DNA of 62,990 nt from assembly GCA_019459525.1 (NCBI GenBank), contig JAIBEY010000009.1, forward strand, positions 1 to 62,990, in the 5' to 3' direction. The position numbers and the translations under genes were made by a program. Below, one piece after another: positions 9,099 through 61,135 of this stretch (position 1 is its first letter; each line of letters starts with the position of its first letter). Under the pieces are notes generated by a model. That model was not told the origin of the DNA, did no database searches, and saw only the letters and a list, made by a program, of their open reading frames with translations. Source of the DNA: Prolixibacteraceae bacterium (GTDB lineage Bacteria; Bacteroidota; Bacteroidia; Bacteroidales; Prolixibacteraceae).

Positions 9099-9240
9099 GT
9101 TTTCACATCACTGCTTTATAAACCGACTCATTTGTTTCTCCGAATAAATATACACCATTTATGTAAACAAACCTGACTCCAAAAACCAAATTTTTCTTCC
9201 CACCTTTTTGTATCTTCGTCAGCAAATCTACATTCTCTCT

Positions 9241-40648: not shown

Positions 40649-41554
40649 TCAGGCTTCCTTCCACTGTTCGCGCATCAGTTTTACTGCGGCAGGTAAGGTG
40701 ATTTTTGAATCGCCCACCGATCCGCATTCAAAACTCACATAGTCCTGATAGTTAATTTCTTTCAGGCCACGGAACCCATTGACGTAGATATCTGCATCTC
40801 CATCTTCTCCGGGCATTTTACGGCGTTTGCGGCTGGCGATATGTACATGGTGCAAATAATCGCCTGCTGCCAGAAATGCCGCGCGGTCGTTGGTTTCTTC
40901 CCAGGTCATGTGCCAGAAGTCGCCCATTACCGCAGCGCCAGCGCTGTTTACGTCACGAATAATGGCAGCGCCATCGGCAACCTGACGGCAGAAATAGCAT
41001 TCCTGACGGTTGAGTGGTTCGAGCAAAAGCCGGGTTTTATGCTGAAGTGCGTAATCGCCGAGTTCTTTCATTTGTCCAACCAGCAATTCGCGGGCTTCTT
41101 TGTCGGGCAACGATTTTTGGTTGTTAAAGGCAGGTACAAAAATTACCCCGGTTGAACCCAGTTCGCCAGCCGCACCAATAATCACTTTCAACGAATCCAT
41201 GCACTTTTTCTGAATGGCAGGATCGTCGGCAATCAGCCAGCCTTCAAATCCGGCGCAAATCGCACTCACTTTCACGTTGCGGTTCTGCAAAGCTAGTTGT
41301 ATTTCATTCACTCTTTTTTCAAGACCACCACCCCAAATTTCAAGGCCAACAATATCCAAAGATTCCATGAAATCGAGTTTTTCGGTCAGTGTGTTGCCTG
41401 GGGCAACGCCTTCCTGACACGAAATTTTCAATTTGGCGGATTTCTTTTTGCCTGAGGCCGGCTCACCCTTAAAAGAAGAGAAAAGGCCGCCTGATGCAGC
41501 TAATGCTGCACCAGAAACGGCTGTTCCTAAAAAAGATCTTCTGTTAAGCGGCAT
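40649..41554 (-). CDS. Tat-exported sugar phosphate isomerase/epimerase-like TIM-barrel protein
   Basis: 301 residues with a twin-arginine signal, NRRSFLGTAVSGAALAASGG, so it is probably folded in the cytoplasm and exported. The mature part is a xylose isomerase-like TIM barrel with the usual metal ligands: Glu in LLLEPLNR, Asp in GDFWHM, His in HHVHIASRKRR and Glu in SFECGS. Such proteins isomerise or epimerise sugars, hydroxypyruvate or keto-sugars; the substrate is unknown. It is last in a three-gene operon with a Gfo/Idh/MocA oxidoreductase 3 nt upstream and a tetraheme cytochrome-SUMF1 protein, which suggests it processes the oxidised product. Confidence 0.85.
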   Translation of the reverse strand: MPLNRRSFLGTAVSGAALAASGGLFSSFKGEPASGKKKSAKLKISCQEGVAPGNTLTEKLDFMESLDIVGLEIWGGGLEKRVNEIQLALQNRNVKVSAICAGFEGWLIADDPAIQKKCMDSLKVIIGAAGELGSTGVIFVPAFNNQKSLPDKEARELLVGQMKELGDYALQHKTRLLLEPLNRQECYFCRQVADGAAIIRDVNSAGAAVMGDFWHMTWEETNDRAAFLAAGDYLHHVHIASRKRRKMPGEDGDADIYVNGFRGLKEINYQDYVSFECGSVGDSKITLPAAVKLMREQWKEA

Positions 41555-41557
41555 ACC

Positions 41558-42967
41558 TTATCGTGTTTGGTTTCCCTGCGGCGTTCCTGCAATGTGAATA
41601 AATTCGGGCAGTATAAATTCTTTCCCTGCACCGTACCCTTCTTTGGCAGCAGCCATCGTTTTGGTCATGTCAATATCTTTTGGCATAAGGTCAAGCGGCG
41701 AAGCAGTCATTTCATCCCAGGTGATTTTCTTTCCGGTGTAAGCCGATTCTCGCCCCATGATGGCAGCCATGTTGGCAACAGCCGTTTCTGATGCCTGTTC
41801 AATCGGCTTTCCGGCGCGGATATGGTTAATCCAGTTCACATGTTCCAAGGTATATGGATCGGTTTGTTTGAAATTGGCTTTTTCGGCTTCGTAGTCGTAT
41901 TTCCATATTTCGTTGCCAGTCAGGTCTTTGATGATGTGTCCGTCGGAAGTCCATGATCCTTTGGTGCCCTGAATAAATTCCCATACGCCACCTTCAGTTC
42001 CGTTGAGCTGGCGACAGGTGCTGTGAATGTGAATACCGTTTTCCATTTCAAAATCGACGCTGAAATTGTCGAACTGGTTACCGGTAACGCGACGCTGGCG
42101 CGAGCCGAATCCAAGTGATGATTTTGGTTTTAATCCTGAAAACCAAGTGAATACATCCAGATTGTGAACATGCTGTTCAACAATATGGTCGCCCGAAAGC
42201 CATCCCCAGTTTACCCAGTCGCGAATCATCCATTCCAGATCCGACCATTGCGGGTTGCGGTCCTTGTACCAGAGCATACCTCCACACCAGTAAACAGTTC
42301 CACCGGTTATTTCGCCGATAGCGCCGTTCATGATTTGTTCGTATGAAGCTACATAATCGCGTTTATGGTGACGTTGCGTACCTGTTACCACGCAAAGGCC
42401 TTTAGCCTGTGCCTGCTTGGCTGTAGCCACAATGGTGCGGTAACCTACCGGATCAACGCAAATCGGTTTTTCGAGGAAGCAATGTTTGCCTTTTTCCACC
42501 GCGTACTTGAAAATTTCGGGGCGGAAATTGGGCGGAGTAGCGGTAATAATCACGTCCACATCGCTGTCAATAACTTTTTGATAAGCGTCGAGCCCCACAA
42601 ATTTTTTGTCTGCCGCAATGTCGATATTTTTCTCTTTTTTCAGGTTTGCAGCTAACTCTTCCAGACGGTCGGCGAAAGTATCGCCTAAAGCCACAATAGT
42701 AACATTATCGGCCGCGTTAAGGAAATTAAACGCAGCACCGGAGCCACGCCCGCCACAGCCGATTATTCCGGCTCTCAGCGGTTTGCCGTCTGTAGCCTTA
42801 TCAACCAGGTTGGGTAAGTAATAAGAGCCTGGCTCTTTCAAAGGTTGTATTTTTGGAGTACTGCTGCACGATGACAACGCTGCAACACTTCCTGTACCAA
42901 TTGCGCCCAATGCCCCGGCCAAAGCCGAGCTTTTCAAGAATGAACGTCTGTCAACACCTTTTTTCAT
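41558..42967 (-). CDS. Tat lipoprotein Gfo/Idh/MocA family oxidoreductase
   Basis: 469 residues. The signal combines a twin-arginine motif (DRRSFLKSSALAGALGA) with a lipobox ending ALSSC, so the protein is probably a Tat-exported lipoprotein with its cofactor already bound. The nucleotide site is AGIIGCGGRGSGAA near residue 66, followed by the family's EKPICVDP near 165 (catalytic Lys) and GDHIVEQHVHNLDVFTW near 268, with the His-x-x-Asn-x-Asp pattern. Family members oxidise or reduce sugars and cyclitols with NAD(P). In the periplasm a bound NADH must be recycled by another electron acceptor; the cytochrome gene just upstream (34 nt) is a candidate. The substrate is unknown. Confidence 0.88.
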   Translation of the reverse strand: MKKGVDRRSFLKSSALAGALGAIGTGSVAALSSCSSTPKIQPLKEPGSYYLPNLVDKATDGKPLRAGIIGCGGRGSGAAFNFLNAADNVTIVALGDTFADRLEELAANLKKEKNIDIAADKKFVGLDAYQKVIDSDVDVIITATPPNFRPEIFKYAVEKGKHCFLEKPICVDPVGYRTIVATAKQAQAKGLCVVTGTQRHHKRDYVASYEQIMNGAIGEITGGTVYWCGGMLWYKDRNPQWSDLEWMIRDWVNWGWLSGDHIVEQHVHNLDVFTWFSGLKPKSSLGFGSRQRRVTGNQFDNFSVDFEMENGIHIHSTCRQLNGTEGGVWEFIQGTKGSWTSDGHIIKDLTGNEIWKYDYEAEKANFKQTDPYTLEHVNWINHIRAGKPIEQASETAVANMAAIMGRESAYTGKKITWDEMTASPLDLMPKDIDMTKTMAAAKEGYGAGKEFILPEFIHIAGTPQGNQTR

Positions 42968-43001: not shown

Positions 43002-44555
43002 CTATTGAATTTTTATTGAATGGTCTGGTTCACAAACAACCCTGAACCCGATGCTTTTAATATCGGAATACCACCAGATGCTTTTAGGTTGCTGCGGATC
43101 GGTTTTCAGCCATACATCGTGTTGGCTGTGGTCGCGGGCTGCTGCGCGCACGTCGGCTGCATCCGAAATATAATTGCCCCCGCGCACAACCCATTCCTCG
43201 CCTTCAGTTACGAGTGGGTTAGTCACTTTCCCGCTGTTTTTGGCATAAGCGTCAGGTGCATAGCGGTCAGCGCAATATTCCATTACGTTGCCCAGCATAT
43301 TTTTCAGGCCGAACGGATTAGGCTTGACCTCGTCGGGCAAGTGCGTTTTGCCTTTGCCATTGTTTGCATAAATGATGTACTGCGAAATCGGTTCGGTTTC
43401 GGCAGCCGATATTTTACGCCATAATCCTTTGTTGGAAAACTTATCCGGTTTACCGTCAAAGAAATACGGTGTTTCCGTGCCACCTCGGGCCGCATATTCC
43501 CATTCGGCTTCTGTGGGCAGTCGGTATTTTTTTCCGGTTTTCTTCGAAAGCCACTGGCAGAAGGTTTCCGCTGCATAATGGGTCATGGTGATTGCCGGGC
43601 GTTTGCCAAACCCCCAGTTCTGGTCGGGGCGCCCATAAGGCGGAGTGGGGCCTGAAATGGCATCCACGTTCGGGTTACTGTTGTTGGCATAAATCTGTTC
43701 GGGCGGGGTGCGTCCTTCGCTCATGGTGTTACCGTAAAATGCCCAGTACTCTTCCCAGGTTGTCTCCACTTCGGCCATGAAAAATGGGCTGACAGTAACT
43801 TGGCGCACCGGCGATTCGTCGGGCTGGTGGAAAGGTTCCTTTTCGGGGCTACCCATGTTGAAGGTGCCTCCTTTGATAGCTATCATCTTGAACGACACGG
43901 ATGTACCTGGAATCTGCTCGGTGTAATCTGCAAAAGTTGATACTGTTGTCGGTTGTTCAAAAACGGGTTTCGAACTGTCGGTGTTGCCGTCGGTTTGCCC
44001 CGGAATGCCGGTCATCTTGCCGTGCTTGTAGTTTGGGTTATGATGCCCGACGTCGAGGTGGCAACTGATGCACTGCAAATCCAGTTTCTTCTCGTTATTT
44101 TCGTAGTAAAGGTGGGCAGCAATGCCCGCGTCAGCTAAATTTTTCGGGAATAGGTTCTGGTGACAATGCTTACACGATGCGTTCGGGATATATTTCACGG
44201 CATGTTCCAGTTCAGACTTCATCTCCCAGTTAAATTCAGCCGAATCTTTGAAGAGAAAACCGTAAACGTCTTTGAGCCCAAGTCTGGTTTTTTCTACCAG
44301 GTAGCCTTGTCCTTTGGGCGGAAGGTGGCAATCGACACAATGCACCTGAATACCACCTTTATTGTCGTAGTGTGTCGATAATTTCCACGATTCAAACACA
44401 TGCGGGTGAACATGGCACGAGGCACAAAATTCATCGGTTGAAGTATATTCGATAGCATGATTGGTAAAAACGGTGGCTAAAATTCCAACGACAAAGGAGA
44501 AAAACAGAACAAGTAAAATACGTTTTCGGATAAAGCTTCCTATCTTTTTTAACAT
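43002..44555 (-). CDS. Tetraheme NapC/NirT-type cytochrome c fused to a SUMF1 domain
   Basis: 517 residues with an unusual two-part build. A transmembrane helix (about 13-30) leads into a NapC/NirT/NrfH-like domain with four CxxCH heme sites at 44-48, 73-77, 128-132 and 162-166. In that family the domain takes electrons from menaquinol and passes them to periplasmic enzymes. A linker follows, and then a full SUMF1/formylglycine-enzyme-like domain (about 217-507) starting MIAIKGGTFNMGS, with RLPTEAEWEYAARGG and NPFGLKNMLGNVMEYC. The region that holds the two catalytic Cys in true formylglycine enzymes reads GGNYISDAADVRAAAR here, without Cys, so sulfatase activation is unlikely and a binding or scaffold role is more probable. 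It heads the operon and has a consensus promoter. Confidence 0.88.
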   Translation of the reverse strand: MLKKIGSFIRKRILLVLFFSFVVGILATVFTNHAIEYTSTDEFCASCHVHPHVFESWKLSTHYDNKGGIQVHCVDCHLPPKGQGYLVEKTRLGLKDVYGFLFKDSAEFNWEMKSELEHAVKYIPNASCKHCHQNLFPKNLADAGIAAHLYYENNEKKLDLQCISCHLDVGHHNPNYKHGKMTGIPGQTDGNTDSSKPVFEQPTTVSTFADYTEQIPGTSVSFKMIAIKGGTFNMGSPEKEPFHQPDESPVRQVTVSPFFMAEVETTWEEYWAFYGNTMSEGRTPPEQIYANNSNPNVDAISGPTPPYGRPDQNWGFGKRPAITMTHYAAETFCQWLSKKTGKKYRLPTEAEWEYAARGGTETPYFFDGKPDKFSNKGLWRKISAAETEPISQYIIYANNGKGKTHLPDEVKPNPFGLKNMLGNVMEYCADRYAPDAYAKNSGKVTNPLVTEGEEWVVRGGNYISDAADVRAAARDHSQHDVWLKTDPQQPKSIWWYSDIKSIGFRVVCEPDHSIKIQ

Positions 44556-44837: not shown

Positions 44838-44869
44838 GTGTTTAAACACCAAAATGGAGTATATCTTTG
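44838..44869 (+). promoter_or_regulatory. Promoter and palindromic operator of the NahK-like operon
   Basis: TATCTTTG (44862-44869) is a full -7 match. Twelve bases upstream lies the perfect palindrome GTGTTTAAACAC (44838-44849), which overlaps where a -33 element would be. A repressor or activator bound there would control the kinase operon. The 298-nt gap between the divergent operons holds this and the leftward promoter, and nothing else that I recognise. Confidence 0.55.
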
Positions 44870-44895
44870 GATTTTTTACAAAAAGACTAAAACCA

Positions 44896-46002
44896 ATGGA
44901 ATTAAAACAAATAGCCGGCAATTTTCAACTGGAAGGAAATGTTGAAAACGTACAACAATTGGGTGAAGGATTTATAAATGATACCTACATAATCCGAACT
45001 ACCGGAGATGTTACTCCTGATTATTTGTTGCAACGGAAAAATAAGAAGATTTTTACTGATGTTCCGGCTATGATGGAGAACATCCGGAAAGTAACCACGC
45101 ACATGAAAAAGAAGGTGATGGCCCGCAATGGAGATCCGCTGCGCGAAGTGCTGACTGTAGTTCCGGCCAACGATGGCAAACTTTATTTTCAGGATGAAGA
45201 AAACGAGTTCTGGGCTGTTTGTATTTTCATTGCCGACACCATTACTCACCAGGCCGCAAAAACTCCGGAACTGGCATTTTTTGGCGGGGAAGGGGTCGGG
45301 AAATTTCAATCGATGGTGGCCGACCTGAAAGAGCCACTTACGGATATTTTGCCCGGATTCCACAACATGAGGTTCCGTTTTAATCAATGGGATGCTGTTT
45401 TGCAGAAAGATCCCGTTGGTCGTAAAGCAAAACTGTCAACCGAAATCAGTTGGATTGAAAGTCGTCGCGAAGAGATGCTCCATTTCTGGTCGTTGGTTGA
45501 AAACGGCGAAATACCTACCCGCATTACCCACAACGATACTAAAATAAACAATATCCTGTTCGATCTGGAAGGCAAAGTGCTGTGTATGATTGATCTGGAT
45601 ACGGTTTTAAACAGCACCTGCCTCAACGATTTTGGCGATGCCATGCGCACGTTTACCAATACAGGGCTTGAAGATGATGAAAACTTGGATGCTGTTTCGA
45701 GTGATATCGCCATTTTCGAAGGATTTACCAAAGGTTATTTGTCGCAGGCCATCAGCTTCCTGAACGAAAAAGAACTGGAATACCTGGCGTTTTCAGCGAA
45801 GTACATCACCTTCGAACAAGTCTTACGGTTTTTGATGGATTACATCGATGGCGACAACTATTACCGGATTAAAAGTCCGGAACACAATTATCAACGAACA
45901 GTGGCTCAGTACAAATTGCTGACCAGCATGGAGGAAAAATATGATGAAATGTGCCGGATTGTGCGCACTTCTGTTAATGACCTGGCTCAATCAGCTTCCT
46001 GA
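44896..46002 (+). CDS. NahK-like sugar 1-kinase (phosphotransferase enzyme family)
   Basis: 368 residues from the ATG at 44896; an earlier in-frame ATG (44854) would put the start ahead of the -7 box and is rejected. The protein follows Bifidobacterium N-acetylhexosamine 1-kinase NahK along its length: EGFINDTYIIRTTG in the N-lobe, the catalytic loop ITHNDTKINNILFD with Asp214, the Mg site MIDLDTVL and the conserved DFGDAMRTFTNTGLEDD and FLMDYIDGDNYYR segments. Such kinases phosphorylate C1 of GlcNAc, GalNAc or a related sugar. Exact specificity is not predictable. The CBM9-like gene follows after 52 nt. Confidence 0.87.
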   Translation: MELKQIAGNFQLEGNVENVQQLGEGFINDTYIIRTTGDVTPDYLLQRKNKKIFTDVPAMMENIRKVTTHMKKKVMARNGDPLREVLTVVPANDGKLYFQDEENEFWAVCIFIADTITHQAAKTPELAFFGGEGVGKFQSMVADLKEPLTDILPGFHNMRFRFNQWDAVLQKDPVGRKAKLSTEISWIESRREEMLHFWSLVENGEIPTRITHNDTKINNILFDLEGKVLCMIDLDTVLNSTCLNDFGDAMRTFTNTGLEDDENLDAVSSDIAIFEGFTKGYLSQAISFLNEKELEYLAFSAKYITFEQVLRFLMDYIDGDNYYRIKSPEHNYQRTVAQYKLLTSMEEKYDEMCRIVRTSVNDLAQSAS

Positions 46003-46054
46003 ATCTTACGGGAACAAAAAAACAATTCAAAATCTTGATTTTAAAAACGAAACG

Positions 46055-46699
46055 ATGAAAATCCAACAAATACTGGAAGGTTTTACCCAACCGCCATTGG
46101 AGCTGGTTGCCGAAACATTTGATCTGGAAGTTGCCCCGCTTAAACTTGAAGTGGTGAATTGGGACGAGTTTCCTTACCATCCGGAAGTTTTCGTGCAAAT
46201 TGCATATAACGACGATGAATTGTTTCTGCAATATCGGGTGAACGAACAATCGGTAAAAGCCGAAATCGCGAAAAGTAATGGCCGTGTCTGGACAGACAGT
46301 TGTGTCGAGTTTTTTCTTTCTCCTGAGGGCAATGACGTTTATTACAATCTCGAAATGAGTTGCATTGGAACAGCTTTGCTTGGATATCGAAAAAAGGGAG
46401 AACCAACAGTCCATGCCACCGATGAGCAAATTGCTACCATTCGGAGAACTTCAAGCCTGGGGGAATCTCCGTTTGCTGAGCGAAAAGAACAAACCGATTG
46501 GGAAATCACGATGGCCATTCCGTGGAAGGTATTTTTCAAGCACGAGCTTACATCGGGTTCAGGCATGAAAATGCGTGGTAATTTTTACAAATGCGGCGAC
46601 GAACTGACGGTTCCCCATTTTGTTTCGTGGACCAAAATTAAAACACCTCAGCCTTCATTTCATATGCCTGAATTTTTTGGCGGGTTGGAGTTTGAGTAG
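46055..46699 (+). CDS. Carbohydrate-binding family 9-like protein
   Basis: 214 residues. After a short N-terminus (MKIQQILEGF) comes a CBM9/DOMON-like beta-sandwich: PEVFVQIAYNDDELFLQYRVNEQSV, then VWTDSCVEFFLSP with the characteristic D-S-C/VE-F-F pattern, YYNLEMSCIGTAL, TDWEITMAIPW near 155 and MRGNFYKCGDE. I use the ATG at 46055. A longer frame from 45941 has a signal-like start but lies inside the end of the kinase gene, so it is probably a chance overlap. Thus the protein is likely cytoplasmic. Its role with the kinase is unknown; it may bind a sugar or glycan fragment. Confidence 0.75.
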   Translation: MKIQQILEGFTQPPLELVAETFDLEVAPLKLEVVNWDEFPYHPEVFVQIAYNDDELFLQYRVNEQSVKAEIAKSNGRVWTDSCVEFFLSPEGNDVYYNLEMSCIGTALLGYRKKGEPTVHATDEQIATIRRTSSLGESPFAERKEQTDWEITMAIPWKVFFKHELTSGSGMKMRGNFYKCGDELTVPHFVSWTKIKTPQPSFHMPEFFGGLEFE

Positions 46700-46779: not shown

Positions 46780-47325
46780 ATGGAATTGACCGACGAGATA
46801 TTAATAACGGGTATAAAACGGAATGATTATTCGTGTTATAATCAGCTTTTCGTGCGCTATTACAGTAGGCTGTGTGCTTTTGTTTTTAACCAGACTCAGA
46901 ACTATACCGCTTCTGAAGATGTGGTTCAAGAGCTTTTCATCAGGCTTTGGATTCAGCGGGGGCGACTCGAAATAAAAGAAAGCATCTCCGGATATTTATA
47001 TAAAGCCTCTAAGAATGCAGCCCTCAATTACCTTCGCGCTGAAAAAAGCCGCAGGAAATCGATTCAAAACATACCGGTTCAGGAATGGCAAACCGATGAG
47101 AACCTGATTGAACAGATCGAATTCAGTGCGGCACTAAATCAATGTATTGGCCAATTACCGGAACGAAGCCGCGATGTATTTATGAAAAGCCGTTTCGATG
47201 GACTCAAACAACAGGAAATTGCAGACCAACTGGGTATTTCGGTAAAAACAATCAAAAACCAAATCTGGAAATCACTTCAATTTCTGAAAGCTTGCCTTGA
47301 GCTGCACGATGCGTTTGAGCCTTGA
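46780..47325 (+). CDS. ECF-family RNA polymerase sigma factor, PUL-associated
   Basis: Sigma-70 family factor of 181 residues with region 2 (CYNQLFVRYYSRLCAFVFNQTQNYTASEDVVQELFIRLW in pieces, about 18-60) and region 4 (LPERSRDVFMKSRFDGLKQQEIADQLGISVKTIKNQIW, about 125-165), and no region 3. This is the Bacteroidota RpoE-like type paired with FecR anti-sigma factors in the control of SusC/D systems. The FecR gene is 219 nt downstream. When the SusC STN domain receives the signal, FecR would release the sigma factor to transcribe the locus. Confidence 0.92.
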   Translation: MELTDEILITGIKRNDYSCYNQLFVRYYSRLCAFVFNQTQNYTASEDVVQELFIRLWIQRGRLEIKESISGYLYKASKNAALNYLRAEKSRRKSIQNIPVQEWQTDENLIEQIEFSAALNQCIGQLPERSRDVFMKSRFDGLKQQEIADQLGISVKTIKNQIWKSLQFLKACLELHDAFEP

Positions 47326-47380
47326 GGAGAACGAAGACCGGGGACCGGAAAATGGGGGGGTGAGCATTCAATTGTTGCGT

Positions 47381-47423
47381 GTTTCGGGTTTAGGGATTTA
47401 CCGCGCATCGTATAACCCGAAAC
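47381..47423 (+). terminator. Hairpin between the ECF sigma and FecR genes
   Basis: Perfect 10-bp stem, GTTTCGGGTT (47381-47390) with AACCCGAAAC (47414-47423), a 23-nt loop, then ATTTTTG. It may terminate or attenuate transcription before fecR. The loop is long for a classical terminator. Confidence 0.55.
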
Positions 47424-47544
47424 ATTTTTGCCACAGCTATTTTCTTGCTTCTGCCTGAAAACTTCCACCTTTCTAAAAAAAAAAACTATTTCCCGATAGG
47501 ACCTTTTCTGTTTTGATGTGTCAGCAGTATAAATAAACAGAAAA

Positions 47545-48534
47545 ATGGAACAGCAATTTCCAATCGGAGAACATATCGTCGATCATTTGCTGGACGGAAA
47601 ACAGTCCGCTTCAGGAGATGCAAAACTGGAGGAATGGCAAAAGGCCAATCCTGAAAATATAAATGATTTAAGGAAATATCAGAAAATATGGACTGCAACA
47701 GCCGATGTTTCAACCCTGCAAAAATTCGATTCTGAAAAAGCATGGAATCAGGTTAATTCGAAACTCGAAACCCGAAAGAACCGTACCCGACAACTTAAAA
47801 ATATAGCACTGGTGGTTTCCGGAATGGCTGCATCGTTGCTGATTTTCCTGAGCCTTACTTTTTATACCAGCCTGTTTTCAAGTTCAGAAGCTACTTTGGC
47901 AATGAGCACCACTTATGGAAGCCGCTCCGAAGTGATCCTTCCCGATGGATCAGTGGTTAAACTCAATGCCGGATCGACTCTGGAATACCACTACGATCAG
48001 ATCAGCCAAACCCGAAAGGTTGATTTTAGTGGCGAAGCATTTTTTGAAGTCGCCAAAAGCAAAAAACCGTTTGTGATTGAAACTGCTGACGGCTTGAAAG
48101 TGAAAGTTCTGGGAACCAAATTTAACCTGAGTGCATATCCGGAAGACCGAATGGCCCAGACTTCGCTCGTTGAAGGGAAAGTTGAACTAAGTCAGAATGG
48201 TTCGCCCAATCTGATCCTGATGCCTGGCCAGATTGCCTCTCTGGATAAAAAATCGAACGAAATCAGATACACCGAAGGAGAAATATCGCACATCACAAGC
48301 TGGATGGAGAACAAACTGTACATGGAAAACATGTCGCTTCAGGAAGTTTGTACCAAAATGGAACGGTGGTACGACGTAAAGATTACACTCAGCGATAAAA
48401 GTCTGGGAGAAAAGATCCATTATACCGGAGTGTTAAAAGAACAAACTGTGTTGGATGTATTGAATGCCCTGTGCCAGTTAAGTTCAATCCGATATGAATT
48501 AAAAGGGAAAGATATTCTGATTTCAGGAAGATAA
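47545..48534 (+). CDS. FecR-family anti-sigma factor
   Basis: Inner-membrane regulator of 329 residues. The N-terminal cytoplasmic part (about 1-80) binds the sigma factor; the transmembrane helix is about 84-105 (ALVVSGMAASLLIFLSLTFY); the periplasmic FecR domain (about 115-210) has TTYGSRSEVILPDGSVVKLNAGSTLEY in two pieces and FSGEAFFEVAKSKKPFVIET, and the C-terminal DUF4974/secretin-like end (about 250-325) has YMENMSLQEVCTKMERWYDVKI. It receives a signal from the SusC STN domain. The next gene is SusC after 124 nt, with a weak hairpin at 48559-48584. Confidence 0.93.
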   Translation: MEQQFPIGEHIVDHLLDGKQSASGDAKLEEWQKANPENINDLRKYQKIWTATADVSTLQKFDSEKAWNQVNSKLETRKNRTRQLKNIALVVSGMAASLLIFLSLTFYTSLFSSSEATLAMSTTYGSRSEVILPDGSVVKLNAGSTLEYHYDQISQTRKVDFSGEAFFEVAKSKKPFVIETADGLKVKVLGTKFNLSAYPEDRMAQTSLVEGKVELSQNGSPNLILMPGQIASLDKKSNEIRYTEGEISHITSWMENKLYMENMSLQEVCTKMERWYDVKITLSDKSLGEKIHYTGVLKEQTVLDVLNALCQLSSIRYELKGKDILISGR

Positions 48535-48558
48535 AATTCTGATTTGATTAAATGAAAA

Positions 48559-48593
48559 ACGGAAGATGTTTCAGCATCCCCCGTCTGTTTTTT
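48559..48593 (+). terminator. Possible weak terminator between fecR and susC
   Basis: ACGG (48559-48562) with CCGT (48581-48584) and GATG (48565-48568) with CATC (48575-48578) form a stem with an internal loop, followed within 3 nt by six T residues. It is weaker than the other hairpins; read-through is likely. Confidence 0.35.
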
Positions 48594-48602
48594 AGATAAT
48601 AA

Positions 48603-48629
48603 AATTGAATGCTACGAACATTCAATTTG
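48603..48629 (+). promoter_or_regulatory. Inverted repeat and -7-like box upstream of susC
   Basis: AATTGAATG (48603-48611) and CATTCAATT (48619-48627) form a perfect 9-bp inverted repeat with a 7-nt loop. The right arm overlaps TCAATTTG (48622-48629), one base off the TAnnTTTG box, 29 nt before the ATG. The same 9-mer CATTCAATT also occurs upstream of fecR (47365-47373). It may be a binding site for a regulator or a leader hairpin. Confidence 0.4.
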
Positions 48630-48658
48630 GAGTAATTAACTAATTGCATTACAAATTT

Positions 48659-51600
48659 ATGAAAAAAATTTATGAATCAGGGAAAGGCGTATGCCATATT
48701 CCCAAAAAGCTCTTGTTGGTTATGAAACTAACTGCCTTTTTAATTGTGGTTCTAACGATGCAGGTTACAGCAACTGTTTATTCGCAGAACAAAAAGTTGT
48801 CGTTGAACATGCAGGGGAATTCCATCAAAGAAGTGCTTCAGCAAATTGAAGCACAGTCGGAGTATCGGTTTATTTACGAGAACGAGAAAGTGAACCTGGA
48901 TGCCATAGTGAGTATCCGGGTAAACGATGAAGTGGTTGAGAAAATCCTAAAACTTTTGTTCGAAAAAGATGGAATTAATTATTCGATAACGGATAATAAT
49001 TTGATTTTGATTAATCCTTCGGAAAAACAGTTGAAGAATTTAGGCCAGGAATTTCTCAATTCTCAGCAACAAAAATCGGTATCGGGTAAAGTCACAGATT
49101 CTTTCGGTAGTTCATTGCCTGGGGTATCGGTAGTGGTAAAAGGCTCTACTAACGGAACCATTACAGACAGTGAAGGACATTATTTACTGCCCAATGTTCC
49201 GGCAAATGCAACCTTGCAATTTACTTTTGTAGGGATGAAAACGCAGGAAATTGCGGTTGGAAGCAATCCAACAATAAACGTAACTCTTGCTGAAGAAACG
49301 ATCGGAATTGAAGAAGTTGTGGCGATTGGTTATGGAACACAGAGGAAAGCTGACGTTACGAGTTCAGTGGCAACAGTAAAATCATCTGATTTTTTGAAAG
49401 GTAATGTGAAAGATGCCGGACAGTTAATTCAGGGAAAAGTAGCCGGGTTAACTATTGTCACTCCCAACGGTGATCCAAGCGGTACTTCTCAAATCATATT
49501 ACGGGGAAATACAACACTGATAGGAGCAAGCATCAGCCCATTGGTACTTGTTGATGGAATTCCCGGAGACTTGAAAACGGTTGCGCCACAAGACATTGAA
49601 TCGATGGACGTTTTAAAAGACGGTTCTGCTGCCGCCATCTACGGAACACGTGGTACGAATGGTGTAATCCTGATCACCACCCGCAGGGCAAGCGGCATAT
49701 ATAAAAGCTCAGTTGAATACAGCAGTTATGCAAGTGTCCAATCCATAGCCCGTAAGCTAAACCTATCAACATCCGAAGATTTCCGTCAGCAAATTAAAGA
49801 TGGGTTCCGGGCTGCAAATACCGATCTGGGTACAACAACCGATTGGTTAGACGAAATATCACGTCAACCGGTCAACCATGTGCACAATCTGACATTCAGG
49901 GGCGGAAATGCAACTACAAACTACCTGGTAAATGTGAACTACAATTCAGCCGAAGGTGTTTTCCTGAAATCGTACAATGAAGCGTTTATCGGACGTGCGG
50001 ACATCAATCATACGATGCTTGATGGAAAACTAAAGATCAACCTGGGGATATTGAATTCTACGAAAAAACTGAATGGCTTCAATGGATACATATACAGACA
50101 GGCCATGTTACAGAATCCTACAGCTCCTATAAAAAATGCAGACGGAACATGGTTCCAGGAACTTTCTAAATTCGAATACGAAAACCCGGTTTCCGATTTA
50201 ATGGAAAGTGATGGTCGTACCAACGAACATCTTTCAAGGTTCAACAATACCATATCTTTAACTCCAATAGAAGGACTAAAACTAACCAGCGTGCTTTCTG
50301 TTTCGAAGTGGAACCAGAATAATGGTTATTCCGAAACAAAACAACACGTTTCAACCTTGCGGGATAGCAGAAACGGATATGCGTCAATTGGTGCAGCTGA
50401 ATCATCTGATAAATTGGCTGAGCTAACTGCCGAATATTCTAAATCAATTGGCAACCACCAATTCAAAGCTCTGGCCGGTTACAGTTATCAGGAAAATGTT
50501 TACACCAATATGTCCATGCAAAACTGGGATTTTCCAACCGACCAGTTTGGCTATTACAACATCGGGCTTGGCGAAGCTAATAAAAATGGAAAAGTTACCG
50601 ATCCACAATCGAGTTACCATGCTGAAACCAATTTAATTGGATTCTTCGGAAGGTTGACTTACAACTACAACGACAAATACCTGTTGATGGCCAGTCTTCG
50701 TCGTGAAGAAGCCAGCCAATTGGTCGGAACAAAAGATCCATGGGGATTATTTCCAGCAGTTTCGGCTGGTTGGAGATTGACCAACGAACCATTTATGAAG
50801 AACCAGCATATTTTCAACGACATCAAATTGAGGGCAGGTTATGGTGTAACTGGTACACAGCCATCTGATTTGTTTCGGGGGGTTGGTATGATCGGATATT
50901 CGGAGTACGTCCTTTCTGATGGGAAATGGGTACGAACCTTAATCCCCACTCAAAACTCAAATCCTGATTTGAGATGGGAAGAAAAACACGAAACAGACTT
51001 TGGTGTTGATTTCAGTATGCTCAATAGCAGGATTAGCGGAAGCATCGATTATTACGTCCGCAAAATAGATGGATTACTTTTTGACTATGCCGTTCCAAGT
51101 CCTCCTAACTTATATTCAACTACCAGAGCTAATGTTGGTAAGATGGAAAATAAAGGGTTGGAAGTTTTAGTTAATGTAGTACCAGTAAAAGCTGAAAATT
51201 TTGAATGGACAAGTAGTGTTTCTTTTTCGACCAATACTAATAAGTTGGTTAGTTTAACAAACGATGTATATACAACATCAAGCGACTACTTTACCACCGG
51301 ATATACAGGTCCTCCGGTACAATCATTTACACACATTGTAAAAGTTGGTGAGCCAATTGGTAATTTTTATGGCTTCAAGGTGATTGGAATTGGCGACGAC
51401 AAAACAGATGTTGCCAATTATGGCCAATGGATTTACGAAGGCGCTGATGGATCAGCGGTCAAGTATAAAGATTTCAAGCATTCTTTTGGCGATAAAAAAG
51501 TGATTGGGAACGGACTTCCTAAATACTATGCTGGCTGGGTCAATAATTTCAGGTATAAAAATTGGGATTTGAGCATTTCGCAACGTGGCGCTTTCAAATT

Positions 51601-52024
51601 TCAGGTAGCTAATTTCCAGCGCATGATGTACGAAAACCCAACTTATACCCAGTATAACCTGCTGAAAACAGCGTTTGATCCGGTATTCGGGAAAACTCAA
51701 TTAAAATCTCCACAGGAATTTAACAGTTATTACATCGAGGACGGCGACTACTGGAAAATTGACAACATCACGTTGGGATATAACATTCCGAAAACCGGAA
51801 TCAAGTATATCCAATCTGCCAGATTTTATGTCTCTTCTTTAAATACGTTCATTATTACCGGCTATAAAGGAATTGATCCTGAAGTCAGCCTGGTTACCAG
51901 TGGCGGAGGTTCTCAGGGCGGTATCAACATCAACAGCGGGGCCGGTTTGGCTCCAGGTGTTGACCAGCGGGATAAATATCCGACAATGAGAACATTTACC
52001 CTAGGACTTAATGTTACATTCTAA
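48659..52024 (+). CDS. susC: SusC/RagA TonB-dependent outer-membrane transporter with STN domain
   Basis: 1121 residues from the ATG at 48659; the TTG at 48644 adds five residues. After the signal (MKLTAFLIVVLTMQVTATVYSQ, cleaved near 43) come an STN secretin/TonB N-terminal domain (about 47-115), which signals to FecR, a carboxypeptidase-D-like sandwich (KVTDSFGSSLPGVSVVVKG), the TonB box and plug (ATVKSSDFLKGNVKDAGQL ... AAAIYGTRGTNGVILITTRR), and a 22-strand barrel ending in TLGLNVTF. It imports glycan fragments with the SusD partner, whose gene starts within its stop codon. The STN domain and the ECF/FecR genes mark it as a self-signalling system. Confidence 0.95.
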   Translation: MKKIYESGKGVCHIPKKLLLVMKLTAFLIVVLTMQVTATVYSQNKKLSLNMQGNSIKEVLQQIEAQSEYRFIYENEKVNLDAIVSIRVNDEVVEKILKLLFEKDGINYSITDNNLILINPSEKQLKNLGQEFLNSQQQKSVSGKVTDSFGSSLPGVSVVVKGSTNGTITDSEGHYLLPNVPANATLQFTFVGMKTQEIAVGSNPTINVTLAEETIGIEEVVAIGYGTQRKADVTSSVATVKSSDFLKGNVKDAGQLIQGKVAGLTIVTPNGDPSGTSQIILRGNTTLIGASISPLVLVDGIPGDLKTVAPQDIESMDVLKDGSAAAIYGTRGTNGVILITTRRASGIYKSSVEYSSYASVQSIARKLNLSTSEDFRQQIKDGFRAANTDLGTTTDWLDEISRQPVNHVHNLTFRGGNATTNYLVNVNYNSAEGVFLKSYNEAFIGRADINHTMLDGKLKINLGILNSTKKLNGFNGYIYRQAMLQNPTAPIKNADGTWFQELSKFEYENPVSDLMESDGRTNEHLSRFNNTISLTPIEGLKLTSVLSVSKWNQNNGYSETKQHVSTLRDSRNGYASIGAAESSDKLAELTAEYSKSIGNHQFKALAGYSYQENVYTNMSMQNWDFPTDQFGYYNIGLGEANKNGKVTDPQSSYHAETNLIGFFGRLTYNYNDKYLLMASLRREEASQLVGTKDPWGLFPAVSAGWRLTNEPFMKNQHIFNDIKLRAGYGVTGTQPSDLFRGVGMIGYSEYVLSDGKWVRTLIPTQNSNPDLRWEEKHETDFGVDFSMLNSRISGSIDYYVRKIDGLLFDYAVPSPPNLYSTTRANVGKMENKGLEVLVNVVPVKAENFEWTSSVSFSTNTNKLVSLTNDVYTTSSDYFTTGYTGPPVQSFTHIVKVGEPIGNFYGFKVIGIGDDKTDVANYGQWIYEGADGSAVKYKDFKHSFGDKKVIGNGLPKYYAGWVNNFRYKNWDLSISQRGAFKFQVANFQRMMYENPTYTQYNLLKTAFDPVFGKTQLKSPQEFNSYYIEDGDYWKIDNITLGYNIPKTGIKYIQSARFYVSSLNTFIITGYKGIDPEVSLVTSGGGSQGGININSGAGLAPGVDQRDKYPTMRTFTLGLNVTF

Positions 52025-53679
52025 TGATTAAAGAAATGGATATGAAGAATTTTAAAAATATAAGAAAGATCGGAATCTCAGTTGTTGTTTTTCTGACCAT
52101 CATGGTTTCATCGTGTACAGAATTAAAGGATGAAAGCTACAATACCATTATTGGCAGCCAATTTACAGCTACCGATTCGGACCTGGCAGCGCTGGCCGGT
52201 TCGGCCTATGTCAACTGGCGTATCGTTTTGAATGATTGGAACGGGCTTTACCGCGCCAACGAGGTTTCGGGCGACGAAATGTTGACTCCTGCCCGTCCAA
52301 ACGGATGGGTTGATGGTGGCGTTTACCGACGCATTCATGAACACAAATGGACCACGGATGATGATATCGTAGTAAATACATGGAGTAGGACTTATGCTGG
52401 GATTACCAATTGCAACCGTGTTATTTTTCAGGTCGAATCCAATGCTATTCCGGTACCCGAAGCTGATAAAGCGGCTTTAATTGCTGAAATGAAAATACTC
52501 CGCGCTTCTTACTACTGGGTTTTGTGCGATTTCTTCGGAAACGTTCCGATCGTTGATAAATTCGATGTTCCTGAAGGTTTCTTACCTAAACAGAATACCC
52601 GGAAGGAAGTGTATGATTTTATCGTTAAGGAGGTTACCGAGAATATCTCGAAAGTTAGTGCTGAAAAAAATCAGAAGACTTACGGAAAGTTCAATCAGTG
52701 GGCAGCTCATGCGCTTTTGGCCAAAGTTTACCTCAATGCAGGCGTTTACACTGGAACACCAGCTTGGGATAAATGTATCACAGAATGCGACGCCATTATC
52801 AATTCAGGAGTTGGGTATGGCTTGGAATCGAACCAGAAAGATGTTTTTGTGACCAACAACGAAAACTCGAAGGAAATCATTTTCGCTTTGCCTTTCGATT
52901 CGAAATACGTAACCAACTGGAATGCTTTCGATATTCACATGCAAACCTTGCAGCCTGAAAATCAGGCTACTTACAATCTGGAGTCTAGCCCTTGGGGAGG
53001 CGTTTGTGCCGTTCCTCAGTATATCAATACTTTTGATACTGACGATTCACGCTATAAGGACAACTACATTAAAGGCCTGCAGTACAAAGCCAATGGTGAC
53101 GTTATTTTAGCAACACTTGGCGAATACAAAGGGAAACCGCTTGCCTACATTAACGAATTGCCCGGAGTTGATTTTTCGGAAGAAGTACACGGTTTCCGTT
53201 TAGGAAAATTCGAAATTGCCATGGGTGCAACGAACCGTTTGAGCAACGACTTTCCAATATTCCGTTATGCCGATGTTCTCCTGATGAAAGCTGAATGTTT
53301 GTTGCGTCAGGGTAAAGCCGACGAAGCTGCTGTTATTGTGACTCAGGTTAGGGCACGGAATTTCAAATCAGCTCCTGAAAAGGCAACTGTTACCGGAGCA
53401 CAATTGATGGGTGGAAGCACATACGACTATGGGCTTCGCAACCACATCACTTCTACGACTGAAGGTGGAGCTGATATTCAATATGGCCGTTTCCTGGATG
53501 AGTTAGGTTATGAATTCTGCCAGGAAGGTCGTCGCAGAACCGACATGATCCGTTTTGGAATGTTTACTAAAAAATCATGGTTATCGCATTCTCCAAATGG
53601 CGACTACAGGGTTTTGTTCCCCATTCCACTCGGCGAAATCCAGAAAAATGCTAACCTGAAACAAAACACCGGTTATTAA
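52024..53679 (+). CDS. susD: SusD/RagB nutrient-binding outer-membrane lipoprotein
   Basis: 551 residues. A lipoprotein signal ends with SSC (Cys31, or Cys25 from the second Met at 52042). The TPR-rich SusD fold follows: YVNWRIVLNDWNGLYRANEVSGDEML, AEMKILRASYYWVLCDFFGNVPIVDK near residues 155-180, KFNQWAAHALLAKVYLNAGVY and the C-terminal LGYEFCQEGRRRTDMIRFG and FPIPLGEIQKNANLKQNTGY, all family hallmarks. It caps the SusC barrel on the cell surface. Its start codon overlaps the susC stop by one base. A strong hairpin follows, so the enzymes downstream may be expressed at a different level. Confidence 0.95.
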   Translation: MIKEMDMKNFKNIRKIGISVVVFLTIMVSSCTELKDESYNTIIGSQFTATDSDLAALAGSAYVNWRIVLNDWNGLYRANEVSGDEMLTPARPNGWVDGGVYRRIHEHKWTTDDDIVVNTWSRTYAGITNCNRVIFQVESNAIPVPEADKAALIAEMKILRASYYWVLCDFFGNVPIVDKFDVPEGFLPKQNTRKEVYDFIVKEVTENISKVSAEKNQKTYGKFNQWAAHALLAKVYLNAGVYTGTPAWDKCITECDAIINSGVGYGLESNQKDVFVTNNENSKEIIFALPFDSKYVTNWNAFDIHMQTLQPENQATYNLESSPWGGVCAVPQYINTFDTDDSRYKDNYIKGLQYKANGDVILATLGEYKGKPLAYINELPGVDFSEEVHGFRLGKFEIAMGATNRLSNDFPIFRYADVLLMKAECLLRQGKADEAAVIVTQVRARNFKSAPEKATVTGAQLMGGSTYDYGLRNHITSTTEGGADIQYGRFLDELGYEFCQEGRRRTDMIRFGMFTKKSWLSHSPNGDYRVLFPIPLGEIQKNANLKQNTGY

Positions 53680-53702
53680 TTAATTCTCTGTTGTTTCAGT
53701 CT

Positions 53703-53740
53703 GTAAGGTTCATCTGTTGTCGAAAATAGGTGAACCTTAC
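53703..53740 (+). terminator. Hairpin between susD and the GH31 gene
   Basis: GTAAGGTTCATCT (53703-53715) pairs with AGGTGAACCTTAC (53728-53740) over 13 bp with one T-G pair, a 12-nt loop and a following TTTT. It lies 24 nt after susD. It could terminate, stabilise the 3' end of susCD mRNA, or do both. Confidence 0.65.
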
Positions 53741-53778
53741 TTTTAAAACAAAGTTGAGAATGACCTAAATTCAAGAAA

Positions 53779-56184
53779 ATGTATAAAAACAAAACAATAC
53801 TCCTTCTAATTTTAACTTTGTTTGCGTCGAATGTTTGGTCGCAGAAATACCAGGAAACAGAGCTTGGGGCCAGTACCACAATAAACTCGGTTACCACTGA
53901 AATCCAGTTTTATTCTCCGGAAATCGTTCGCGTTATCAAATTTCCTGAAGGAGAAATAGTGAATAAACAAAGCCTTTCGGTAATTAAGGCTCCCGAAAAA
54001 ACGGATGTAAAGATCGGCCAAAACGGACAAGTTGTGACTTTAAGCAGCTCAGCTTTAGCTGTTGACTTAAACCTCGAAACCGGGAAAATAACTTATCGTG
54101 ATGCAAAGGGAAACCTGCTGTTTACAGAAAAGGATTATGGAATTCAATTTACAGCTGTTAAGGATGTTGACGACGATACATATATCGTCAGGCAGGCGTT
54201 TTTGCTCGACAAGGATGAAGCCATCTACGGCTTAGGTCAACACCAAAAAGGAACGATGAACCAACGGATGCAGAAACTGTTTCTGCGCCAGGAAAATATG
54301 CAGATTTGCATCCCGTTTTTCCAGTCGGTGAAAGGGTATGGCCTTTTCTGGGACAACTATTCGCCTACCACTTTTGTCGATAATTTGCAGGAAACTTCTT
54401 TCGAATCGCAGGTTGGCGATTGCGCCGATTACTATTTCATGTATGGCGCAAATGCCGATGGGGTAATTGTCGGTATGCGCAGCCTGACCGGGCAAGCGCC
54501 CATGTTCCCATACTGGACTTTCGGGTATTGGCAGAGCAAAGAGCGGTATAAAAGTCAGGATGAAATCGTTGGCGTTGTGAAAAAGTACCGCGAAATAGGT
54601 GTGCCGCTCGATGGTATTATTCAGGATTGGCAATACTGGGGCGACAACTACCACTGGAATGCCATGGAATTTTTGAACCCTGCTTTCCCCGAACCCAGAA
54701 AGATGATTAACGATATACACAACATGAATGCACACATCATCATTTCGTGCTGGGAATCGTTTGGGCCTAAAACCAAAGCGTTCGAAATCATGGATAAGAA
54801 AGGCATGTTGCTGAACTTTAAAACATGGCCTCCTAGTTCGGAAGACAAGTGGCCGCCAGATCCGGCAAAACCTTCAGGAGTAAAACCTTATGATGTTTAT
54901 AACCCCGAGGCTCGCGACATATACTGGGATTTCATGAACCGTGGCATCTTCTCGCTGGGTATGGACGGCTGGTGGCTCGATTCTACCGAACCCGATCATC
55001 TGGAAGTGAAAGAAGAAGATTTTGATAACAAAACCTACCTGGGGTCATTTCGTAAAGTGCGCAATGCTTACCCTTTGATGGCAGTGGGCGGGGTATCCGA
55101 TCACCAACGCCAAACCTCTGCCAATAAACGGGTTTTCATCCTTACCCGTTCGGCGTTTGCCGGGCAACAGCGTTATGGTGCTAACTCGTGGAGTGGCGAT
55201 GTGGTTTCGGACTGGAATGTGCTTCGCAACCAGATTTCAGGAGGACTCAATTTTTCTCTGTGCGGAATCCCCTACTGGAATTGCGATATTGGCGGCTTCT
55301 TTCCCTGGAATTATCGCGGTGGAGTAGGAAACGTAGCTTACAGAGAATTGTATGTCCGTTGGTTACAGTTTGGCGCCTTTACGCCAATGATGCGCTCGCA
55401 TGGAACCGATACGCCGCGCGAAATCTGGAACTTTGGAGAAAAAGAAAGCTGGGAATATAATACCATTGAAAAGTACATTAATCTGCGTTACTGTTTATTG
55501 CCTTACATCTACTCAACTTCATGGCAGGTTACTGCCAACGCTTCGAGCATGATGCGCGCCCTGATGATGGACTTCGCCAGCGACAAGAAAGTCCTCGACA
55601 TCAACAACGAATATATGTTCGGAAAATCAATTCTGGTCAGCCCTGTTACCGAACCGCTTTATACTGAAAACAAAAAGGAAGGTTCAACCAGCGATTTCAG
55701 TAAAGTAAAAAGTAGCAAAACATACTTGCCGGAAGGTGCCGAATGGTACGACTTCTGGTCGGGCGTAAAACTACAGGGCGGACAAGAAGTGGAACGGCCA
55801 ACGCCAATAGACATTATGCCTTTGTACGTAAAAGCGGGATCAATTATTCCGATGGGCCCAACGGTTCAATATGCTGCCGAAAAGCAAGATCCAATCGAAA
55901 TCCGTATTTATCCGGGAGCCAATGGGACATTTGTACTGTATGATGACGAAAAGGACAACTATAACTACGAAAAAGGAATGTATGCTACCATTGACCTGAA
56001 GTGGGACGATGCCACAAAAACCCTAACCATTGGTGATCGGAAAGGCAAATTCCCCGGGATGCTGAAAAACCGCAAATTCGAAGTTGTTGTGGTAAACGAA
56101 AAATCAGGAACAGGAACAGAAGTTTCAAAAACTGTAAAAACAATTAATTATTCGGGGGAAGGGATAGTTGTTGAGCTTAGATAA
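53779..56184 (+). CDS. GH31 glycoside hydrolase, alpha-xylosidase-like
   Basis: 801 residues with a signal peptide (KTILLLILTLFASNVWSQ). An N-terminal beta-sandwich (about 20-230) leads into the GH31 TIM barrel with QDWQYWGD, the nucleophile Asp401 in DGWWLDSTEPD, and the acid/base Asp474 in SWSGDVVSDW, then a C-terminal DUF5110 part (IRIYPGANGTFVLYDDE). The WWLDSTEPD form of the nucleophile motif is close to Bacteroidota and Cellvibrio alpha-xylosidases that act on xyloglucan oligosaccharides, but the PA14 insert found in several of those is not seen. Alpha-glucosidase activity cannot be excluded. It follows susD after 99 nt and precedes GH127. Confidence 0.9.
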   Translation: MYKNKTILLLILTLFASNVWSQKYQETELGASTTINSVTTEIQFYSPEIVRVIKFPEGEIVNKQSLSVIKAPEKTDVKIGQNGQVVTLSSSALAVDLNLETGKITYRDAKGNLLFTEKDYGIQFTAVKDVDDDTYIVRQAFLLDKDEAIYGLGQHQKGTMNQRMQKLFLRQENMQICIPFFQSVKGYGLFWDNYSPTTFVDNLQETSFESQVGDCADYYFMYGANADGVIVGMRSLTGQAPMFPYWTFGYWQSKERYKSQDEIVGVVKKYREIGVPLDGIIQDWQYWGDNYHWNAMEFLNPAFPEPRKMINDIHNMNAHIIISCWESFGPKTKAFEIMDKKGMLLNFKTWPPSSEDKWPPDPAKPSGVKPYDVYNPEARDIYWDFMNRGIFSLGMDGWWLDSTEPDHLEVKEEDFDNKTYLGSFRKVRNAYPLMAVGGVSDHQRQTSANKRVFILTRSAFAGQQRYGANSWSGDVVSDWNVLRNQISGGLNFSLCGIPYWNCDIGGFFPWNYRGGVGNVAYRELYVRWLQFGAFTPMMRSHGTDTPREIWNFGEKESWEYNTIEKYINLRYCLLPYIYSTSWQVTANASSMMRALMMDFASDKKVLDINNEYMFGKSILVSPVTEPLYTENKKEGSTSDFSKVKSSKTYLPEGAEWYDFWSGVKLQGGQEVERPTPIDIMPLYVKAGSIIPMGPTVQYAAEKQDPIEIRIYPGANGTFVLYDDEKDNYNYEKGMYATIDLKWDDATKTLTIGDRKGKFPGMLKNRKFEVVVVNEKSGTGTEVSKTVKTINYSGEGIVVELR

Positions 56185-56241
56185 AGCATCTAAAACATAA
56201 ACCTAAAGCTATCTGACAATTAAAAAACAAATTATCGACAG

Positions 56242-58197: not shown

Positions 58198-58216
58198 TTT
58201 GGAGTGATCGAACATT

Positions 58217-58256
58217 AAGTTTGCCCCTTTGCCGTTGCTGGCAAGGGGGCAAACTT
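58217..58256 (+). terminator. Strong terminator after the GH127 gene
   Basis: 17-bp stem, AAGTTTGCCCCTTTGCC (58217-58233) with 58240-58256, one T-G pair, a 6-nt loop, and then TGTT. It is the strongest hairpin in the window and would isolate the next gene. Confidence 0.8.
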
Positions 58257-58291
58257 TGTTATCGAAGATTCGTAATCACAAATTAACGTCA

Positions 58292-58323
58292 TTTGTACAC
58301 TTCTAATTATTTTCCCATATTTG
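58292..58323 (+). promoter_or_regulatory. Internal promoter before the GH51 gene
   Basis: TTTG (58292-58295), a 20-bp spacer, and CATATTTG (58316-58323), one base off the TAnnTTTG box. It would start transcription near 58330, 28 nt before the ATG, and restart the locus after the terminator. Confidence 0.6.
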
Positions 58324-58357
58324 TTGGCAGTAACCCATTCCCTAAACTAAACCTCTG

Positions 58358-60970: not shown

Positions 60971-61135
60971 AAACGGTTTTATAAGCAGCTGAAATTCCGC
61001 ATAGAAAGAGTCGCTTTTTGTTTTTATTGCTAATTTTATCCGCCTGAAAATTGCATTTTAACTGTTGGAAGGTATCAGACCTTGCATTTTATGTAACTGT
61101 TCTGTATAGATTTTCAAACCTAAACAAAAAGAACC

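Follow-up and report, generated by a model that had tools for sequence, protein, structure and literature searches.

A single gene at positions 43002 to 44555 (minus strand) of a Prolixibacteraceae contig (JAIBEY010000009.1, assembly GCA_019459525.1) joins a NapC/NirT-type tetraheme cytochrome c domain to a SUMF1-type domain, and the gene directly downstream encodes an oxidoreductase of the Gfo/Idh/MocA family (hereafter Gfo) with a twin-arginine translocation (Tat) signal. We analyzed positions 1 to 62,990 of this contig, here called the window, together with homologous loci in other genomes. Conservation and gene order lead us to propose, tentatively, that the fusion protein may be a membrane adaptor that docks a lipid-anchored sugar dehydrogenase, the Gfo, which would carry its own nicotinamide adenine dinucleotide (NAD), and links it to menaquinone. 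No description of a fusion between a NapC-type cytochrome and SUMF1 was found in the open-access literature, a coverage that leaves out most subscription papers.

The frame is intact and its product has 517 amino acids. The preliminary description, which gave no strand for this gene, had reported a membrane helix, four CxxCH sites, a NapC/NirT-type domain, and SUMF1 within one frame, and open reading frame (ORF) analysis, Pfam, and conservation bear this layout out. The N-terminal membrane helix was assigned by eye to approximately residues 13 to 35, and all four heme motifs (CASCH at residue 44, CVDCH at 73, CKHCH at 128, and CISCH at 162) are predicted to lie C-terminal to this single helix. 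The Cytochrom_NNT profile (PF03264) covers residues 12 to 175 (E = 3.3e-33; 115.3 bits against a cut-off of 24.1), that is, 44031 to 44522 on the minus strand (PF03264 match at E = 8.1e-34). A linker of approximately residues 176 to 222 leads to the SUMF1 domain (FGE-sulfatase, PF03781; residues 223 to 478; E = 9.2e-40; 137.3 bits against a cut-off of 23.3), whose coordinates, calculated from the residue numbers, are 43122 to 43889 on the minus strand and whose conservation reaches approximately residue 508. A second fusion (56% identity) is present in the same genome, where its own Gfo gene and then another Gfo gene follow it.

By tblastn, we examined 141 loci, comprising 80 from named genomes (the best 80 of 375 stretches encoding a relative, used throughout), 60 from a sample of 393 genomes of the same order, and the paralog just mentioned. 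The search for the fusion elsewhere that the preliminary description had recommended recovered the same architecture repeatedly: 137 full-length rows, drawn from both sets together with the window and its paralog, were aligned, of which 133, window included, are distinct, and four CxxCH motifs are present in all of them. Full-length rows were picked by a length of at least 480 amino acids, those of the order sample also by a match to both halves, and the duplicates are the window, which appears twice, and pairs common to both samples. Six of the 60 order loci fall outside these rows: five (L146, L147, L148, L198, and L205) lie at contig ends, and the sixth (L164), missed by ORF picking, has four CxxCH motifs and no stop. 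Alignment A1 holds 44 of 46 references, with L061 (two stops in range) and L052 omitted. Identity to the window across full-length rows has a median of 67% and a minimum of 46%, and the closest relatives among the matches listed are unclassified Bacteroidetes and Prolixibacteraceae assemblies (88 to 92% identity). Relatives among the best 80 of 375 matches belong to Prolixibacteraceae, Tannerella, Parabacteroides, Dysgonomonas, and others, including gut and environmental bacteria; no fusion was seen outside Bacteroidales among these matches, in a search that hardly extended to other phyla. Within the order sample, 52 of 393 genomes have a fusion match at E ≤ 1e-40, and in a phylum sample of 296 genomes a match to both halves occurred only in the window's own genome. 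In a tree, not fixed at its root, that combines 42 of the 137 fused SUMF1 domains with 32 free ones, a branch with 100/100 support separates the fused domains from the free ones, and a single fusion event is therefore the simplest account.

The tetraheme half resembles NrfH of the Desulfovibrio NrfHA complex (PDB 2j7a and 2vr0) and the NapC/NirT family (PF03264) in having one N-terminal helix, four CxxCH motifs, and equivalents of NrfH Lys82 and Asp89. Counted on an alignment with NrfH (2j7a), Lys82 corresponds to K89, present in 133/133 distinct rows, Asp89 to D96, present in 132/133, and Met49, which we take to be the heme-1 ligand, to His50. Together with the PF03264 match, the retention of K89 and D96 supports the quinol-dehydrogenase type that the preliminary description had assigned to this half, as far as sequence can indicate. 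Both NrfH residues are named in connection with the quinone pool in the accessible part of one source (PMC4683180). The fusion differs from NrfH in its heme-1 motif, which is CxxCHxH (His50 in all 133 distinct rows) instead of CxxCHxM, and in its neighbor, which is a Gfo dehydrogenase rather than a nitrite reductase; relative to both NrfH and NapC, it adds a C-terminal SUMF1 domain. It scores below the NCBIfam cut-offs for NrfH (TIGR03153; 75.2 of 134.2 bits) and NapC/NirT (TIGR02161; 70.6 of 310.6 bits). We also considered whether the fusion might be the NrfH of this genome's nitrite reductase and rejected this, because the sole NrfA-type match in the genome adjoins another NNT protein, on contig C74, and that NrfH-like protein carries the CxxCHxM motif (CVNCHIM). 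Among 14 control genomes, the NNT family was matched only in Escherichia coli.

The SUMF1 half shares with the formylglycine-generating enzymes (FGEs) the domain profile (PF03781) over residues 223 to 478, and FGE structures align across most of it. Hence, the "complete SUMF1 fold" of the preliminary description holds at the level of the profile. However, both active-site cysteines, placed where we take the FGE catalytic cysteines to fall on the alignment, lack a counterpart: positions 466 and 469 hold no cysteine in 133 rows, nor does position 464 in the 132 rows that are listed. An active FGE was rejected because this catalytic pair is absent. Position 471 is a cysteine in 37% of the fused rows and in 50% of the free ones. 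Unlike FGE, the fusion has a segment, W482..TDPQxPKSxWW495, that is conserved in fused forms and largely in free forms too. NCBIfam models for PvdO, GldK, EgtB, and others all match below threshold, the best being PvdO (E = 1.2e-25; 90.1 of 500 bits, short of the equivalog cut-off). PvdO (5hha) is also the best solved match in a single-sequence search (E = 4.9e-18), whereas FGEs outrank it in a profile search. PvdO and PorK/GldK, which are envelope proteins, have a SUMF1-type domain without formylglycine function, as in the fusion, although the fusion scores far under their equivalog cut-offs and their partner genes presumably differ from those found here. We therefore read the SUMF1 half, from its sequence features, as a probable non-FGE partner module. 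In a Parabacteroides distasonis record, the sole annotation of the fusion gene is "SUMF1/EgtB/PvdO family nonheme iron enzyme."

At the fusion loci, this module is nearly always paired with one Gfo family. Two loci whose contigs end inside the fusion (L146 and L147) were left out of the neighbor count. In 134 of the remaining 139, including 80/80 from named genomes, a Gfo gene on the same strand begins no more than 700 bases downstream; the rule that the preliminary description had proposed to test, that the fusion always neighbors a Tat-exported Gfo/Idh/MocA gene, is thus true of nearly every locus but not of all. In the order sample, 52 genomes have the fusion, 52 have the Gfo (E ≤ 1e-90), and 51 have both, a co-occurrence whose Fisher value is inflated by genome kinship; in the one genome with only the fusion (G448), the fusion gene is cut by a contig end.

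The window's Gfo gene (41558 to 42967, minus strand; 469 amino acids) encodes a Tat signal (RRSFLK) and a lipobox-type Cys34. Its family membership is supported by Pfam, motif conservation, and fold: a model with a mean predicted local distance difference test (pLDDT) score of 78.6 matches the Gfo/Idh/MocA fold, and the conserved features are a GCGGRG motif, Asp96, the EKP lysine K167, and His268. All 154 Gfo rows counted keep Asp96, K167, and His268, and nearly every row has the Rossmann glycines; we assume for the Rossmann motif, the EKP lysine, and the catalytic histidine the roles that they have in the family. Fold matches of similar Z include, among many rows, DgpA, levoglucosan dehydrogenase, NAD-dependent sulfoquinovosidases, and GFOR, and the Foldseek and VIA lists back the family fold, single out no substrate, and say nothing against families that they do not list. 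The Gfo reaches no equivalog cut-off, its score against BT_2158_fam being 29.2 of 750 bits. Four Gfo residues (H201, W241, M247, and N253) are fixed in fusion partners and mostly different in outside Gfo rows, and they are candidates for cytochrome-interface residues.

Three bases after the Gfo gene, a third gene (40649 to 41554, minus strand; 301 amino acids, with a Tat-like signal) encodes a sugar isomerase/epimerase-like triosephosphate isomerase (TIM) barrel (AP_endonuc_2), with a TIM match in 92/141 loci. Its nearest solved relatives are a putative sugar isomerase (3kws; 389.5 bits) and then a 3-keto-D-glucoside 4-epimerase (6wn6; 82.8 bits). By homology, the Gfo and TIM-barrel genes point tentatively to keto-sugar chemistry, in likeness to the 3-keto-glycoside systems BT2156-2160 and DgpA, whose operons combine a Gfo-type 3-dehydrogenase (BT2158 or DgpA) with keto-sugar enzymes. 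The LacABC glucoside 3-dehydrogenase is a flavin-using enzyme with a cytochrome c subunit. We know of no NapC-SUMF1 fusion in any of these three systems. At L183, the fusion and its Gfo are followed by a second Gfo (167.6 of 750 bits for the BT_2158 model) and a ThuA protein. Clusters of the paralog type (L183, L116, and similar) run from the fusion through two Gfo genes to a glycosyltransferase-like gene (by eye), which in several cases is preceded by a gene of approximately 400 amino acids, which Pfam identifies as ThuA at L183.

In the phylum sample, the top matches from outside the order span only residues ~200 to 508, in frames mostly of 315 to 440 amino acids, and thus represent free SUMF1 domains. 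In 26 of the best 32 such loci, examined down to E = 2.4e-35, the same Gfo family lies directly downstream on the same strand; elsewhere, the Gfo is divergent and lacks the cysteine (L207) or lies within 4 kb (L115), and no Gfo is present in L097, L098, L099, and L217. The preliminary description had named separate halves with unrelated neighbors as a pattern that would speak against it, and what we found is a separate SUMF1 mostly beside the same Gfo family. Its suggestion that SUMF1 may dock a periplasmic enzyme therefore gains support; its alternative, glycan binding by SUMF1, gains none from these data. Because free SUMF1 keeps the Gfo without an adjacent multiheme gene, the SUMF1-Gfo pair looks like the shared unit, with the tetraheme domain a probable addition in Bacteroidales. 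Two loci of one family from two genomes (L097 and L099) have, instead of the Gfo, a 180-amino-acid gene and, further on, a two-CxxCH gene, which in L097 is PSCyt1/DUF1549/DUF1553 by Pfam and is accompanied by a DUF1501 gene; this is a second, different tie of this SUMF1 group to c-type cytochromes.

The Gfo itself differs between the two settings. A lipobox-type cysteine follows the Tat signal in 133/133 distinct Gfo rows at fusion loci (118 fit the strict lipobox pattern, and the other 15, 8 of which are listed, have the cysteine in a looser motif) and in 0/26 Gfo rows beside free SUMF1. Four of 17 outside Gfo rows (L116, two nonadjacent ones of L115, and the second Gfo of L109) were not used for the 26, and the adjacent Gfo of L109 was read separately and counted. 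In two rows (L096 and L102), a cysteine stands at an earlier point of the signal and belongs to no lipobox, and the Gfo of L116, partner of the paralog in the window's own genome, has the lipobox-type cysteine. Since the cysteine occurs with the fusion and not beside free SUMF1, both partners are predicted to be membrane tethered only where the cytochrome is present.

In the mechanism that we propose, the NapC/NrfH-like half would sit at the inner membrane, on its periplasmic side, and, with its hemes loaded, exchange electrons with menaquinone, and the SUMF1-like half would be a non-formylglycine docking module for the neighboring Tat-exported Gfo. The Gfo, itself lipid-anchored and retaining its own NAD, would act in the periplasm and oxidize its substrate, a sugar or glycoside, perhaps at the C3 position; the keto product would be epimerized or cleaved by the TIM-barrel protein, and the reducing equivalents would exit via the hemes to the quinone pool. 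The most likely direction of electron flow is sugar to quinone, given that NAD is not easily reduced by menaquinol. A bolder form of this proposal, which we regard as doubtful, is a respiratory sugar dehydrogenase of a new kind in which Gfo-bound NADH is reoxidized in the periplasm by the SUMF1-docked, quinone-linked tetraheme cytochrome with no free NAD or flavin, so that anaerobic Bacteroidales would respire glycosides via keto intermediates outside the cytoplasm.

Several points weigh against the proposed adaptor. NADH-to-heme transfer normally needs a flavin, and no flavin protein was seen as a constant neighbor of the fusion; the weak point is how a hydride carrier would hand over to one-electron hemes without one. 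An adjacent same-strand Gfo is missing from five of 139 loci: in L160, it lies 3 kb downstream, in L162 and L163, the nearest is on the opposite strand, and in L161 and L173, none occurs within the fetched stretch. Genome G454 has a Gfo (L206) with no fusion near it. The order sample has 84 Gfo matches (at most four candidates were scored per genome) versus 62 fusion matches, and many close Gfo paralogs are therefore without a fusion of their own; G333, G563, G612, G630, and similar genomes have four close Gfo paralogs and one fusion match each. The fetched stretches of the 26 free SUMF1-Gfo loci contain no ORF with at least two CxxCH motifs, and ORFs with one occur in L108 (a Tll0287-like protein), L209, and L212. 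Further, L115, with a free SUMF1, has one nonadjacent Gfo with the cysteine, and the correlation between cysteine and cytochrome is probably a single evolutionary event, because the fused SUMF1 domains form one side of a branch. Finally, the AlphaFold model of the fusion (mean pLDDT of 50.6) was discarded as too poor for geometry.

A serious rival, if on balance an unlikely one, is that the Gfo, with its NAD bound, goes through a redox-neutral cycle like that of NAD-dependent sulfoquinovosidases and GH109-type enzymes, and that the fusion only anchors or chaperones it, with hemes that rescue an NADH-stuck enzyme or sense the quinone redox state. Such sulfoquinovosidases and GFOR are among the fold neighbors of the Gfo, and SUMF1-Gfo pairs occur without an adjacent multiheme gene. 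In Bacteroides thetaiotaomicron, BT2158 is described as a periplasmic glycoside 3-dehydrogenase, and the accessible part of its description mentions no cytochrome (PMC11300592); as BT2158-like periplasmic Gfo enzymes are described there without one, which also counts against the adaptor, their cofactor recycling may be redox-neutral. However, the retention of all heme sites in 133/133 rows and of both quinol-site residues in 132/133 exceeds the needs of an anchor.

Reverse flow, in which menaquinol would reduce the keto-sugar or bound NAD via the tetraheme domain and the module would be a terminal reductase like NrfHA, agrees with the characterized NapC/NrfH relatives known to us, which oxidize quinol. 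We nevertheless find it quite improbable: NAD reduction by menaquinol is thermodynamically unfavorable, and several loci look catabolic, with glycoside hydrolase (GH) family 2 and TonB-receptor genes identified by Pfam in L020 and members of the GH2 and TonB-receptor clusters beside 15 and 20 loci. Just as improbable is that the SUMF1 half is itself an oxidoreductase using the hemes in place of oxygen, with the Gfo acting before or after it. PvdO, its best solved and best NCBIfam match, is named a dihydropyoverdine dehydrogenase, and most free SUMF1 domains have no adjacent cytochrome, which an oxygen-using oxidase would not need. However, the PvdO score is far under the equivalog cut-off, FGEs rank above PvdO by profile and yet their cysteine pair is absent, and no alternative metal site was identified, with the cysteine at 471 in half or fewer of the rows of either form. 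That a sequencing or assembly error joined two genes has virtually no probability and was ruled out, because 133 distinct full-length sequences share the architecture and keep all four CxxCH motifs, and partial genes in the order sample stop within a few bases of contig ends.

Elsewhere in the window, 30 kb from the fusion, a CcsB/CcsA-like cytochrome c assembly pair was identified by Pfam at 9208 to 11272 (plus strand), consisting of a ResB-like gene (9208 to 10488, plus strand) and a Cytochrom_C_asm gene (10463 to 11272, plus strand). In L062, L069, L073, and L081, the trio of fusion, Gfo, and TIM-barrel genes is immediately followed by a CcsBA-type gene from the same cluster as the pair (Pfam on the L069 copy), and the pair may belong to the same system. 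A divergent cydA-like gene is the immediate upstream neighbor of the fusion in L170 and L190; in L176 and L177, one ORF separates the two. Pfam confirmed cydAB in L170 only. In the window itself, 44854 to 46699 holds a divergent kinase-like gene (APH family) and a CBM9_2 protein (Pfam), a pair kept beside the fusion in the close relatives L007 to L011 and L013. Beyond it, genes for an extracytoplasmic function (ECF) sigma factor, FecR, a TonB receptor, SusD, GH31, GH127, an arabinofuranosidase, and GH5 make 46780 to 62395 a polysaccharide utilization locus, which begins approximately 2 kb from the fusion and probably targets arabinose-containing glycans. In P. distasonis (L224), the trio is followed by two LuxR-type regulator genes and a TonB receptor according to the annotation.

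To our knowledge, it is unsettled how exported Gfo/Idh/MocA dehydrogenases recycle their cofactor with no NAD diffusing in from the cytoplasm, and a cytochrome that is conserved and, at almost every locus, coupled to one exported Gfo offers a direct test of this. If our proposal is true, a SUMF1 domain can serve as a partner-specific module, and the P. distasonis gene now known by its family annotation would acquire a role. The gene pairing suggests a route by which sugar oxidation outside the cytoplasm may be wired into respiration.
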